Below, one piece after another: positions 22,888-59,062 of a stretch of DNA of 64,000 nt (positions are counted from its first letter, which is position 1; each line of letters starts with the position of its first letter). The position numbers were made by a program, and so were the translations under genes. Origin of the DNA: Flavipsychrobacter stenotrophus (GTDB lineage: Bacteria; Bacteroidota; Bacteroidia; Chitinophagales; Chitinophagaceae); the NCBI RefSeq assembly GCF_002954265.1, contig NZ_PPSL01000003.1, positions 310,001 through 374,000 on the forward strand, written 5' to 3'. A model generated the notes under the pieces. That model saw only the letters and a list, made by a program, of their open reading frames with translations, did not search any database and was not told the DNA's origin.

Positions 22888-24018
22888 ATGGCGCGGTTAA
22901 AAATAGGTGAGGGTAAGATCAGTGGGTACATATCTATCTTCCTTAGCCTGCTTGGGTTGTGTGGCGTTATTTGTTTCAAATACCCCGAATGGCTCACTAC
23001 TCCTGAATTTAGAGAAGTATATACCGGTGAGAGTATGAAGATACTGATGACGTCTGTGATCATTGCCTCTTTCTTTTTCGGCCTGCTGAGCTTCGTTTTA
23101 AGCAAGCAGAAGAAGTACGCACTCATAGGGGTGGTTATTGCTGCGGCAAGTATTGTTATCGGTGGCTTTGATGTGCAGGGTAGGGCGGTGAACAAAACAA
23201 GCTGGCACCTGGGTGTTGACTGGCTGTTGCTGGATCTGCTGCTGATGGCGGTGATCTTTGTACCTATAGAATTGGCGCTACCCAAGAATAAAGAGCAGAG
23301 CAAATTTCATGAAGAGTGGCGAACTGACCTTGTGTACTTTGTGATCAGTCATCTGTTCATTCAGTTCTTTGGTGCTATCACTCAAAAGCCGGCCACGCTG
23401 CTTTTCGGCAGAATGGGGCTTACTGCATTGCATGAATGGGTGCAGTCGTTGCCATATGTAGTGGAGCTCCTGTTTGCCTTCTTAATCGCTGATCTTTTCC
23501 AGTACTGGACACATCGTTTTTTTCATAGCCATGCCTATTTATGGCGGTTCCATTCTGTGCATCATTCAACAGTGAACATGGACTGGCTGGCAGGATCACG
23601 CACACATTTTGTAGACATATTCGTTACCCGCTCTATGGCATTCATTCCGCTGTATGTGTTTGGTTTTTCTGCCATCACATTCAATACCTATATTGCTTTT
23701 ATGGCTATTCATGCCGTGTTGATACATGCTAATACGCGCATTAATTTCGGTGTGCTGAAGTACATTATTGCCACGCCTCAATATCATCACTGGCATCATT
23801 GCGAAGACCCGGAGCACTACGGCAAGAATTTCGCAACTATCTTTCCTTTTCTCGATAAGCTATTCGGTACGTATTATCTGCCGGGTAAGGAATGGCCCGC
23901 CGGCACAGGGTTACACGAGGCTAATTTCCCTAAGGGCTACCTGAAGCAAATGGTATACCCATTTACCAAGAGCCCATTTGATGACAACCTGAATATGGAG
24001 GAGCGGACAAAGCGATAA
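22888..24018 (+). CDS. sterol desaturase/fatty acid hydroxylase family protein
   Basis: A 376-residue polytopic membrane protein. The C-terminal half holds the di-iron histidine boxes of the fatty acid hydroxylase superfamily: HRFFH, HSVHHS and HHWHH, plus HAVLIH between them. The N-terminal 110 residues add three or four extra hydrophobic segments, longer than minimal family members. Such enzymes hydroxylate or desaturate lipids, sterols or carotenoids; the substrate here is not known. The start follows a TATATTTA box with TTG 21 bases upstream of it. A repeat field starts immediately after the stop. Confidence 0.88.
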   Translation: MARLKIGEGKISGYISIFLSLLGLCGVICFKYPEWLTTPEFREVYTGESMKILMTSVIIASFFFGLLSFVLSKQKKYALIGVVIAAASIVIGGFDVQGRAVNKTSWHLGVDWLLLDLLLMAVIFVPIELALPKNKEQSKFHEEWRTDLVYFVISHLFIQFFGAITQKPATLLFGRMGLTALHEWVQSLPYVVELLFAFLIADLFQYWTHRFFHSHAYLWRFHSVHHSTVNMDWLAGSRTHFVDIFVTRSMAFIPLYVFGFSAITFNTYIAFMAIHAVLIHANTRINFGVLKYIIATPQYHHWHHCEDPEHYGKNFATIFPFLDKLFGTYYLPGKEWPAGTGLHEANFPKGYLKQMVYPFTKSPFDDNLNMEERTKR

Positions 24019-24548
24019 AAGGCGGTTTTGAAAAGTGGCAGTTTTTCACAAAAGTGGCAGTTCTGCTTATGTTGATTTGGCTGTATTTGTTTGTGGGTAA
24101 GGTTTTCAAAGCATTTTAACAAACTGCTACTTTCTGCCACTTATTGCCACATGCTGCTACTTTTTCTGCCACTTTTTTTCATCAAAAATAGTTTTTTAAG
24201 ATGGTCATTGCGAGGCACGAAGTAATCTCGCATCGGGCGGCTTGCACAAATTTCGTAATCTTTACAGGTAACAAAACGAATACGTCCCGTGCGAATGTCG
24301 TGGTTCGGCGCGGCTCACCATGACATTCGGGGCTGGGTTATGATAGAGTCTATATGTCAAAGAGCACGCCGTCCTTCGGCAAGCTCAGGATGACAGATTA
24401 TAAATCGAGTGCAAATTAATATAGGAAAATGAGTTTAGAAAATAAAGATATTCACAAAATTTGCGAAAAAATCGGCTGAAATACGCTGTGGGAAAGGGTT
24501 TGAAGGTGGTTATTTTCTGTGGATATGTTTTTTGATGGGTTTTTAAAC
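24018..24548. repeat. composite intergenic repeat, inverted relative to 56.5-57.5 kb
   Basis: This 530-base stretch has no credible gene. Reading the minus strand, it contains in order: an A block (24530-24351; CATATCCACAGAAAATAACC ... TTTGTGAATATCTTTATTTT ... CTCTTTGACATAT), a REP hairpin (24292-24329), a TGCGAG...CTCGCA hairpin (24209-24232), and a B block (24180-24028; repeated AGTGGCAG-type motifs, a core TTTGTTAAAA...AAACCTTACCCACAAA, and the complementary CTGCCACT motifs). The same blocks recur in the same order on the plus strand at 56.5-57.5 kb. The known widespread element CCGTCCTTCGGCAAGCTCAG lies at about 24370. Confidence 0.8.
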
Positions 24549-56484: not shown

Positions 56485-56532
56485 TGTTGGTAATCAAATT
56501 CCATCACATTTTTCATTGTCCTAAACGCTTTG

Positions 56533-57535
56533 GGGAAAACATATCCACACAAAATAACCCACCTCAAACCCTTACCCACAGCGCATTGCCGAAGATTTTC
56601 TCGCAAATTTTGTGAATATCTTTATTTTATAAATCCATTTACCCATATTAATTTACACCCGATTCGGGAGTAGTTCCTGATAACTCTTTGACATATGAAC
56701 CCTTATCACAATCCACCTGCATACATTGTAGGGGCTGAAAATTTTCAGCCCTGCACCAACTACAGTCTAACACTGGTTGAAGCGTCTCGCTTCAGACACA
56801 AAATGCAACCTGAGCATCCCAACCTCAATCACAAATTGGCGGAAACACTGCGGAAAAGTGCAGAAAAACTGCGGAAAACTGCGGAAACTGGCGGTTTTAC
56901 AAATCGGCTAAAACCCTTGTCTGGAAAGTCGTTAATAGGAAACTACCCAAAAAAAACTGCCGGAAACGCAAAAAAACCACCAATGGCGGAAAAACACAAA
57001 ATAACCGCTCTCAATGAACAAAATGGCGGTAAACAAATACAGGGATTGTCTAAAAAGGTAGCAGCAAAAAGTGGCAGCATGTAGCAAAAAGTGGCAATTT
57101 GCTAAAACGACCTGAAACCCTTACCCACAAACAATTACACCCCAAATACCCGAACCAAAACTGCCACTTTTGTTAAAAACTTCCACTTCCTATTTTATGT
57201 AAGCAACAACTCCCCTTTTATTTTAAGAGGGGACGATATTCGACCGGCCCCTGGGCCAGTTGTCGAATGTCCGGGGTGATAACAACACCGGACATTCGTT
57301 TGTACCCTGCAACAACCGTACAGCACCTGTACAAGCATCCCGATGCGAGATTGCTTCGTTCCTCGCAAAGACCCTCTAAATGCAGAAGAAAGTAGAAGAA
57401 AGTAGAAAAAAGTGGAAGAAAGTGGAAGTTTTGTGAAATTTGTTAAAACACCCTGAAACCATTACCCATAAAGGCATACAGCCAAAAAACCCAAAACAAA
57501 ACTTCCGTAAACACGAAAAAACTTCCACTTTTCAA
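56533..57535. repeat. composite intergenic repeat field (A, B1, B2, REP, B3)
   Basis: About 1 kb without a convincing gene. Block A (56537-56698: CATATCCACACAAAATAACC, TTTGTGAATATCTTTATTTT, CTCTTTGACATAT) is followed by three B units: B1 (about 56838-56990, GCGGAAAACT repeats), B2 (about 57055-57195, AGTGGCAG / CTGCCACT ends) and B3 (about 57378-57535, AGTGGAAG / CTTCCACT ends). B2 and B3 share the core AAAC..CCTGAAACC.TTACCCA. A REP hairpin (57264-57298) and a GCGAG...CTCGC hairpin (57344-57367) lie before B3. The whole field corresponds, inverted, to 24018-24548. The remaining gap to purN (57536-57723) shows nothing recognised. Confidence 0.8.
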
Positions 57536-57723
57536 TTGCTCCATTGCGCTATGACGTTTTCGCCTGTAGAGTCTATACCAATTAAACGTCAAAAATAACA
57601 CCTTACATGTCATGACCCCGTAGGCGGTCACCGCTTTGTAGCAACCCCCAACCCCTACACACATGCGAGCCGTCAGGTTCGCAGCCGATTACAACCTCGC
57701 CGTTTTATGATGTTCCACCGGTA

Positions 57724-58378: not shown

Positions 58379-59062
58379 AGCTCTGAAAGAGCGCATTCAA
58401 AAGCGTAGGGTGAAACCCTACGTCTTAAAAAAGTGACACACAGCTCTGAAAGAGCGCCCTCAACCTATGTATGCGGTGTGACTAATCCCATACATACCGT
58501 TCATCATATTCCACATTATATTTTTTCAGGAAGCCTCTATATTCATCCTGAAATGTTTTAACCCTGTGATGTTCATGCTGGCTATTTATGTACTCAACTA
58601 CTTTATCTATCTGAGTAGGATTTACCGAGAATGCACCGTATCCTTCCTGCCAATAAAATTCTCCGCTGTGGGTTTTCGCCCATTTTGATGATCGGGTCTT
58701 TATCCCTTTTATGAGGTCTGACAATGCCACTTTTTTCGATAGCATGCATAGAATGTGAACATGGTCAAGATGGCCGCCTACCCTGATGGGGTTACTTTCC
58801 ATATCCCTGCAAATACCACCTATGTAGTTGTATAGATCATTATCGTAAGGAGACTGTATTAATGGTTGCCTGTGTTTTGTGCTGAATATTATATGCAGAT
58901 AGTTATTGACAAGCGATTGTGCCATAGTTGGTTTTGTTTAGCCATCAATATAATTAAAATAGCGGTTGGATGTGGTAGGAGGGCGCTCTTTCAGAGCTAT
59001 GTGGCAGGATAATTTATACGTAGGGTTTCACCCTACGCTATTGAGTACGCTCTTTCAGAGCT
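58379..59062. mobile_element. RAYT element: transposase framed by mirror-image REPs
   Basis: Left of the transposase: AGCTCTGAAAGAGCGC (58379), CGTAGGGTGAAACCCTACG (58404-58422), AGCTCTGAAAGAGCGCCCTC (58442-58461). Right of it, the same three in inverted order and orientation: GAGGGCGCTCTTTCAGAGCT (58979-58998), CGTAGGGTTTCACCCTACG (59019-59037), GCTCTTTCAGAGCT (59049-59062). The 20-base inner pair is an exact inverted match. Confidence 0.85.
58482..58925 (-). CDS. REP-associated tyrosine transposase (IS200/IS605 Y1 family)
   Basis: A 147-residue HUH single-strand endonuclease/transposase. The opening NNYLHIIFSTKHRQPLI, the HUH motif in LDHVHILCMLSKK (about 54-66) and the catalytic Tyr region GYGAFSVNPTQIDKVVEYI (about 100-118) are intact. 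No TnpB gene is adjacent. Mirror-image REP palindromes on both sides fit a RAYT that mobilises or is maintained with REPs. The gene appears complete. Confidence 0.9.
   Translation of the reverse strand: MAQSLVNNYLHIIFSTKHRQPLIQSPYDNDLYNYIGGICRDMESNPIRVGGHLDHVHILCMLSKKVALSDLIKGIKTRSSKWAKTHSGEFYWQEGYGAFSVNPTQIDKVVEYINSQHEHHRVKTFQDEYRGFLKKYNVEYDERYVWD

Follow-up and report, generated by a model that had tools for sequence, protein, structure and literature searches.

Two composite loci in the window

The window analysed here, a stretch of 64,000 nucleotides, holds two intergenic blocks built of the same non-coding parts in opposite orientation (Table 1). The initial annotation had described each block as a composite repeat consisting of an A block, a REP hairpin, a GCGAG hairpin and B units, and all of these parts are present as described. 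A search with the 531-bp block at 24018-24548 returns 79 matches with E ≤ 0.01 in its own genome (G000; 5.43 Mb, 21 contigs), far above chance and not merely the two copies; some fifty copies of the non-coding unit reside in this genome. Composite loci are also found in the related genomes G010 and G004. The REP and GCGAG hairpins additionally match places free of A and B, in G000 and in genomes G006, G009, G015 and G030, so they are not proper to the unit. A 147-aa ORF on the minus strand at 58482-58925, 0.9 kb from locus 2, is one that we take to resemble an IS200/REP-associated Y1 transposase; it may be related to the REP hairpins.

Table 1. Positions of the parts of the two composite loci (window coordinates)
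Feature	Locus	Position	Strand	Remarks
B unit, GGCA class	1	24031-24179	+	left sites 24031-24041 and 24050-24060
B core	1	24065-24117 (53 bp)	+	
B right array	1	24124-24172	+	CTGCYAC/TTGCCAC copies
GCGAG hairpin	1	24210-24231	+	
REP	1	24292-24329	+	
boxA (putative)	1	24354-24365	-	sense GCTCTTTGACAT; rrn boxA of the same genome GTTCTTTGACAT
Variable hairpin, here REP-like, between promoter and boxA	1	24369-24395	-	
A module (putative promoter regulatory region)	1	24400-24540	- (sense)	
Predicted promoter -7 region	1	24409-24420	-	sense ATTAATTTGCAC; compared by eye with rrn promoters
Promoter-proximal paired site of A	1	24448-24457	-	sense TGTGAATATC, followed by -33 region CTTTATTTT
Distal paired site of A	1	24518-24527	-	sense CATATCCACA
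A module	2	56527-56684	+ (sense)	
A paired sites	2	56539-56549 (distal), 56611-56620 (proximal)	+	
Predicted promoter elements	2	56620-56628 (-33), 56647-56658 (-7)	+	
boxA (putative)	2	56683-56694	+	ACTCTTTGACAT
B unit, GTGG class (B1 of the initial annotation)	2	56823-56994	-	
B unit, hybrid (B2)	2	57029-57195	-	outer left motif GGAA; inner left motif and right array GGCA
REP	2	57264-57298	-	
GCGAG hairpin	2	57345-57366	-	
B unit, GGAA class (B3)	2	57384-57537	-	

A total of 140 loci were assembled from these three genomes of one genus (the first window locus from the window itself, the remainder fetched from the genomes) and scanned with four profiles built from G000 copies. At least one unit is present in 136 of the 140, and both A and B in 112 (43, 35 and 34 in G000, G010 and G004, respectively). 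All 112 carry their units on the same strand, with one to three B units followed by A in the orientation of the initial annotation. B matches number one in 86 of these loci, two in 22 and three in 4, some of the extra matches being partial; A stands alone in 11 further loci and B in 13. Model searches, which scored at most 150 candidates per genome, give A/B matches of 54/75 in G000, 51/59 in G010, 48/54 in G004 and 7/4 in G005. G006 has 20 A-like matches, and the other six of the 11 genomes of the genus have 0-3 per genome and model. Gaps between neighbouring units exceed 615 bp in 2 of 146 cases, which correspond to an IS3-family-like insertion (L115) and an HTH gene (L109). In L115 the transposase ORFs, at about 1066-2275, separate B from A, which are adjacent at the orthologous G010 locus L100.

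Two ideas about placement were rejected. Insertion solely between convergent genes is true of both window loci, but of only 12 of the 35 loci with both neighbours; among the 37 loci for which orientation was scored from crude ORF calls, the convergent arrangement is merely the largest class. Regular chromosomal spacing fails as well, with a mean gap of 84.5 kb and a CV of 0.87 versus 0.92 for random placement, 0.35 of random sets being as regular. In the literature searched, which covered papers outside subscription, there is no description of such a unit; its parts are already known, the assembly is not.

The A module resembles the recA regulatory region

Read on the opposite strand, A has the layout of a promoter region, with paired TGTGNATAT/ATATNCACA sites, a hairpin, an rRNA-type boxA and B lying downstream. 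The order on this strand is the proximal site, CTTTATTTT, ATTAATTTGCAC, the variable hairpin and GCTCTTTGACAT. The module is bracketed by paired sites of the form ATATYCACA ... TGTGGATAT, around a core that resembles the core of B and has a nearly fixed length of about 60 bp (counted by eye). An A2 subtype keeps the promoter-proximal site while the rest has diverged. Bacteroidota promoters have the form TTTG / TANNTTTG. By eye, the promoters of the G000 rRNA operon read TTTTG / TACCTTTGC, and GTTCTTTGACATATTGG lies ahead of its 23S gene; we take GTTCTTTGACAT to be the boxA of this operon.

The boxA was scored as the best 12-mer match after the promoter in 117 of 124 A units, those having a parsed promoter and enough sequence. 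Among B-containing loci, 90 of 109 have a match of at least 10 of 12 positions to the rrn boxA downstream of the predicted promoter, versus 14 of 2340 mononucleotide shuffles; the figure for loci with A alone is 2 of 8. A good boxA is missing from 19 of the 109, which counts against the reading preferred below.

A paired-site module lies directly upstream of recA in eight of nine genomes, the ninth (G009) having been missed by the gene-start pattern. Matches to the A model occur upstream of recA in the relatives G001, G003, G005 and G006 (genes named by eye), upstream of a protein starting MRG[KE]K (99 aa in G000; also in G003 and G006) and upstream of small proteins of one family (G000, G005, G006). 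On these resemblances, A reads as a recA-type regulatory region. The recA core itself is a long perfect or near-perfect inverted repeat in G000, G010, G004, G005 and G006; upstream of recA in G000 (L257), G010 (L256) and G004 (L255) this repeat lies between the paired sites, and in G000 it reads GGCCCAAAACCTTTAC / GTAAAGGTTTTGGGCC. Separately, G006, which is without A/B composites, has other repeated promoter-like stretches of the form TTTGTGCATATCTTTATTTGG ... TATCTTTG or TACCTTTG (L207, L210, L213, L214, L216, L217, L219-L222).

The two ends of the B unit change together

Each B unit consists of two left motif copies (19 bp apart, start to start, in the window copy), a core and a right array. 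The array holds 3-8 copies per unit, mostly spaced at 10 bp (78 GGCA units, tolerant rule). It is pyrimidine-rich, and its CTGCCAC copies often precede T runs. Of 134 parsed units, 90 have a core of 53 bp, and the remainder fall within 50-55 bp; 24 further B matches were left unparsed. Three motif classes are distinguished, GTGGCA, GTGGAA and GTGGTG. A further class in G005, recognised by eye, combines GTGGTAG/GTGGGT copies on one side with CTACC/CACCC copies opposite them across the core (L068, L197 and the unit beside the HTH gene), so joint change of the two ends extends to another genome.

The initial annotation had proposed that the motif differs among units but pairs within each. For this comparison, 151 units scored at least 60, of which 136 were parsed; 24 belong to the GTGG class, and the remaining 112 were compared. 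The proposal holds for the most part: in 105 of the 108 units that allowed a decision (four were ties), the inner left motif is the one that predominates in the right array. It is not absolute, as the outer left motif agrees in 92 of 105 decided units. Eleven GGAA units retain an outer GTGGCA motif, and this lag of the outer motif tells against the preferred reading. B2 in the window is a hybrid of another kind: its inner left and right motifs are of GGCA type, but the outermost left motif is AGTGGAAG.

Turnover and constraint

Masked flanks identify about 30 loci as orthologous between G000 and G010. B is present in one species and absent from the other at L015/L078, L022/L089 and L025/L085. 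Pairs of B units from separate G004 loci share 89-98% identity over 134-191 bp, starting within about 5 bp of the B left end, while their A modules show less likeness or no match; copying or conversion can thus involve B by itself. Larger blocks move too, as in the copied pairs that include A (L156/L157 in G004; L123/L125 and L092/L104 in the other two genomes). Cores look replaced, with at least 19 positions different, in 7 of 26 comparisons (5 of 23 orthologous loci). Of the G000 loci, 12 match a G004 element locus on both flanks and 11 on a single flank; two or more of these 11 are at contig ends. Some loci lie at synteny breaks. Precise empty sites were sought in element-free relatives, with mostly one-flank matches.

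Constraint was assessed in 17 G000/G010 pairs with non-replaced cores (18 are listed; L115 is excluded for its IS insertion). Flanks differ at 538 of 5920 positions (9.1%) and spacers at 178 of 2416. The cores of B (84/904, 9.3%) and A (40/425, 9.4%) drift at the flank rate, almost without length change. The paired sites are about 2-9 times slower than flanks: B left sites differ at 18 of 609 positions (3.0%), the B right array at 35 of 736 (4.8%) and the A paired sites at 2 of 175 (1.1%). The boxA differs at 1 of 96 (1.0%). Labels based on G010 yield nearly equal rates (flanks 9.3, left 3.3, right 5.1, A sites 1.0 and boxA 1.9%), so the choice of intact copies biases the result little. The -7 segment of A (16/182) is no slower than flanks and does not stand out, which disfavours strong promoter constraint, although the segment spans variable neighbours.

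Gap positions counted in both directions number 256 beside the 5920 flank positions, 1 beside 904 for the B core and 0 beside 425 for the A core; in the right array there are 65 beside 736, as whole copies come and go. When six more pairs with replaced or length-changed cores are included, the B core differs at 189 of 1218 positions (15.5%) with 7 gap positions, the B left sites at 33 of 821 (4.0%) and the flanks at 607 of 6746. The idea that cores are strictly gap-free was dropped in view of the 1 gap position in 17 pairs and 7 in 23. One-base differences between anchors are seen in L013/L110, L028/L090, L027/L082 and L015/L078 (a GTGG unit). Hypervariable cores, in the style of retroelement mutagenesis, were suggested by some comparisons but likewise rejected, since 1-14 of the roughly 53 positions differ in the majority of orthologous cores. 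Among the counts of 19 or more, that of L028/L090 is raised by a genuine length difference of one base; the smaller count of L013/L110 (7) is raised by the position of the core cut.

These patterns bear on the possibility of a plain miniature mobile element, neutral once inserted, with A and B as its two ends. The gains and losses of B, the near-identical G004 units whose likeness is in several pairs largely confined to B, the replaced-looking cores and the one-flank matches all suit such an element. It is nevertheless an unlikely account, because the sites and boxA stay constrained at their loci even as core and flanks drift, B is copied without A (some copied blocks including A notwithstanding), and A reads as a recA-type promoter. 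The suggestion of a non-autonomous mobile element in the initial annotation is borne out in part: B is gained, lost, copied or converted between loci, but the copies are under constraint where they lie.

An HTH protein encoded beside B units

Locus L109 carries a gene for a 199-aa HTH protein between two B units. A homologue search in seven genomes identified 33 places. All eight homologues at 52% identity or more (G000, G010, G004, G005) are followed by a B-type unit 0-450 bp past the stop codon, although the G005 unit (L226) reaches only 11 bits and was identified by eye. The eight genes represent at least five distinct loci by their neighbours, with L230 outside this comparison. The class of the adjacent unit is GGCA for three, GGAA for two, GTGG for two and the G005 class for one. 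The other 22 loci scanned, with remoter homologues, have a B unit in none, and this counts against the preferred reading.

Five positions separate the owners of GGCA units from those of GGAA units, and only residue 31 differs in all four classes, being A, T, K and H for GGCA, GGAA, GTGG and the G005 class, respectively. It stands directly before a helix predicted at 32-40, taken to be the recognition helix, and the stretch PRTLFDWIREGDW that follows is identical in all eight proteins. GTGG units number 15, 10 and 0 in G000, G010 and G004, and a GTGG-type protein is found in the first two of these genomes and not in the third. Two results weigh on the other side: a GGAA-type protein was not found in G000 despite 19 GGAA units scoring at least 60, and GGCA and GGAA owners are not resolved from each other in the protein tree.

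Four proteins of the family match phrog_4151, 'DNA binding protein', with E-values of 4e-17 to 2e-22. The family is also matched by 37 phage records, those listed being 27-30% identical over 110-125 aa (best E 8e-10), and these include Porphyromonas phages annotated as terminase small subunit (TerS). In both phage records opened, the homologue lies directly before the large terminase gene (TerL). A TerS-related HTH protein is encoded beside the B site. Pfam gives only matches under the curated cut-offs, among them HTH and terminase-type models, and matches to transposase HTH parts are weak. The AlphaFold model, from a run on 13 sequences, is weak (pLDDT 68.7, pTM 0.37), a further point against the preferred reading. 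Foldseek against the PDB shows no TerS among the 50 matches shown and none below E 0.001; the partial matches of good quality (probability ≥0.9) extend over some 40 residues belonging to HTH folds. No large terminase, portal or capsid gene was identified by eye among the ORFs of at least 100 aa in seven HTH-gene loci of 3-6 kb, nor any IS200/IS605-type tyrosine transposase among the ORFs of these loci.

A homologue at E ≤ 1e-8 occurs in 28 of 294 sampled genomes of the family. No new motif class was found beside TerS-like genes of other genera in 30 loci, a weak test in which 18 loci were unparsed, two were wrongly parsed and the detector missed two of four known owners. A GTDB scan returned seven loci with no independent class; six are in MAGs titled Flavipsychrobacter or Chitinophagaceae, and the seventh has 35% identity.

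Two other groups of genes deserve mention. Remoter HTH paralogues (L239, L244, L247 and L250 in G000; L238 in G004) share an upstream block of TTATCCACA and GGTAC-type palindromes, another paired operator. A family of 165-193-aa proteins lies beside A-type regions (L126 in G000; L194, L205 and L208 in G006; L206 and L211 in G005); it shares a PT..E..Q.KLI-like segment with the HTH protein, and the three members scanned have no Pfam match.

A putative transcription unit leading to a proposed protein-binding site

We favour, with moderate confidence and on sequence evidence, a reading in which each locus would be a non-coding transcription unit running from A to B, and B a nucleoprotein site for the HTH protein. 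Transcription would proceed opposite to the orientation of the initial annotation. A would be a regulated promoter with the recA-promoter design of the genus, that is, two inverted TGTGNATAT sites round a core, followed by the -33 and -7 elements, and RNA polymerase would start there under a regulator that also serves recA. The transcript would begin with the variable hairpin and the rRNA-type boxA, where polymerase may take up a boxA complex that should make it resistant to Rho-dependent termination. It could then cross the spacer of unrelated hairpin repeats and reach the one to three B units.

At B, the solitary TerS-related protein, encoded beside some of these units, would bind the phased copies on both sides of the core, probably with several HTHs aligned along the same face of the DNA in the manner of a TerS ring. 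In such rings, the HTHs stand about one helical turn of DNA apart (PMC4737164). The ends of B would change together because one protein reads both, and a change at residue 31 would go with the motif class. The product could be an RNA, a transcription block or bound DNA. As to the earlier suggestion that the covariation reflects either a stem or paired recognition sites, the latter is supported by the co-changing classes, the 10-bp phasing, the slow sites, the near-fixed core length and the linked HTH protein, whose residue 31 follows the class.

Alternatively, ordinary parts may simply lie side by side: A would drive short transcripts as a stress promoter, B would terminate transcription, either in both directions or with Rho, and the HTH gene would do no more than use B as its terminator. 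B does lie on the 3' side of both the HTH genes and the A-driven units, and the T runs after CTGCCAC copies in a pyrimidine-rich array would fit termination. We regard this as improbable; it leaves unexplained the class switching of both ends, the residue-31 correlation and the near-fixed core length, and so large a loop is poor for intrinsic termination.

A structured RNA, in which the ends of B form a stem in the transcript and co-change by compensation, is quite unlikely: the agreement of inner left and right motifs would suit it, as would the right copies (in the orientation of the initial annotation), which vary mainly from C to T at heptamer positions 1 and 5 (107 and 91 of 418) and would keep G-U pairs with a left site that is almost invariant in a tally made with a motif-fixed pattern, but the strand concerned is antisense to promoter and boxA, RNAalifold yields 5 pairs and -1.98 kcal/mol for B (zero pairs for A), the equally wobble-capable position 4 is C in 418 of 418 copies (only partly independent, as the counting rule favoured GC at 3-4), the fixed-length core and 10-bp direct repeats better suit DNA phasing, and class-level change represents a handful of evolutionary events rather than many independent compensatory ones. 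Neither conserved structure nor independent compensatory changes were found, and the stem considered initially is not supported. Rfam matched no family to A or B in six loci; its sole match, an unrelated Acido-Lenti-1 RNA, lies in L018 (4884-4928, 41.2 bits).

Beyond the reading of each locus as an A-to-B unit with a protein site at its end, the HTH proteins may tentatively be viewed as domesticated phage packaging-recognition proteins, a solitary TerS-like family whose members would each read their own pac-like class at the ends of stress-promoted, boxA-tagged non-coding transcripts, with specificity lying largely in one residue; this we consider possible but doubtful. If true, such a system could organise the chromosome, gate transcription, or mark DNA for a helper phage or gene transfer agent. 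More generally, the loci would provide a natural case, open to counting, in which a DNA-binding protein and its sites across the genome shift specificity in step; the candidate residue is named, and several classes coexist within a single cell. They would also connect three elements not shown together in the literature searched: a promoter of recA type, non-coding units bearing an rRNA-type antitermination signal, and a phage packaging-type DNA-binding protein that is solitary in a chromosome.

Comparison with known systems

The closest parallel to B and its protein is the SPP1/SF6-type pac site with TerS. SPP1 pac has two TerS-binding regions round a cut core and overlaps the TerS gene (PMC6316719). 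The loci described here likewise have two regions of direct repeats round a core, an HTH protein encoded at the site, a spacing of about one helical turn, and relatives of that protein directly before TerL. They differ in comprising dozens of chromosomal sites of varying class that follow a promoter-boxA unit, and in the solitary nature of the genes, TerL being absent by eye from the nearby ORFs of seven loci.

The REPtron (REP and RAYT) likewise combines scattered extragenic repeats with the gene of a cognate protein, beside which a repeat copy lies (PMC3733652). Here, the protein is an HTH protein with only weak transposase-HTH matches, and the unit joins promoter, boxA and B, whereas a REP is a short palindrome.

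The beginning of the unit is like the leader of an rRNA operon in its boxA 12-mer, usually within one or two bases, and in the hairpin just before it; unlike such a leader, it is followed by no rRNA, and its spacer is not conserved among loci. Finally, recA with a paired-site regulatory region is an arrangement like that of the Bacteroidetes LexA-like SOS regulon.
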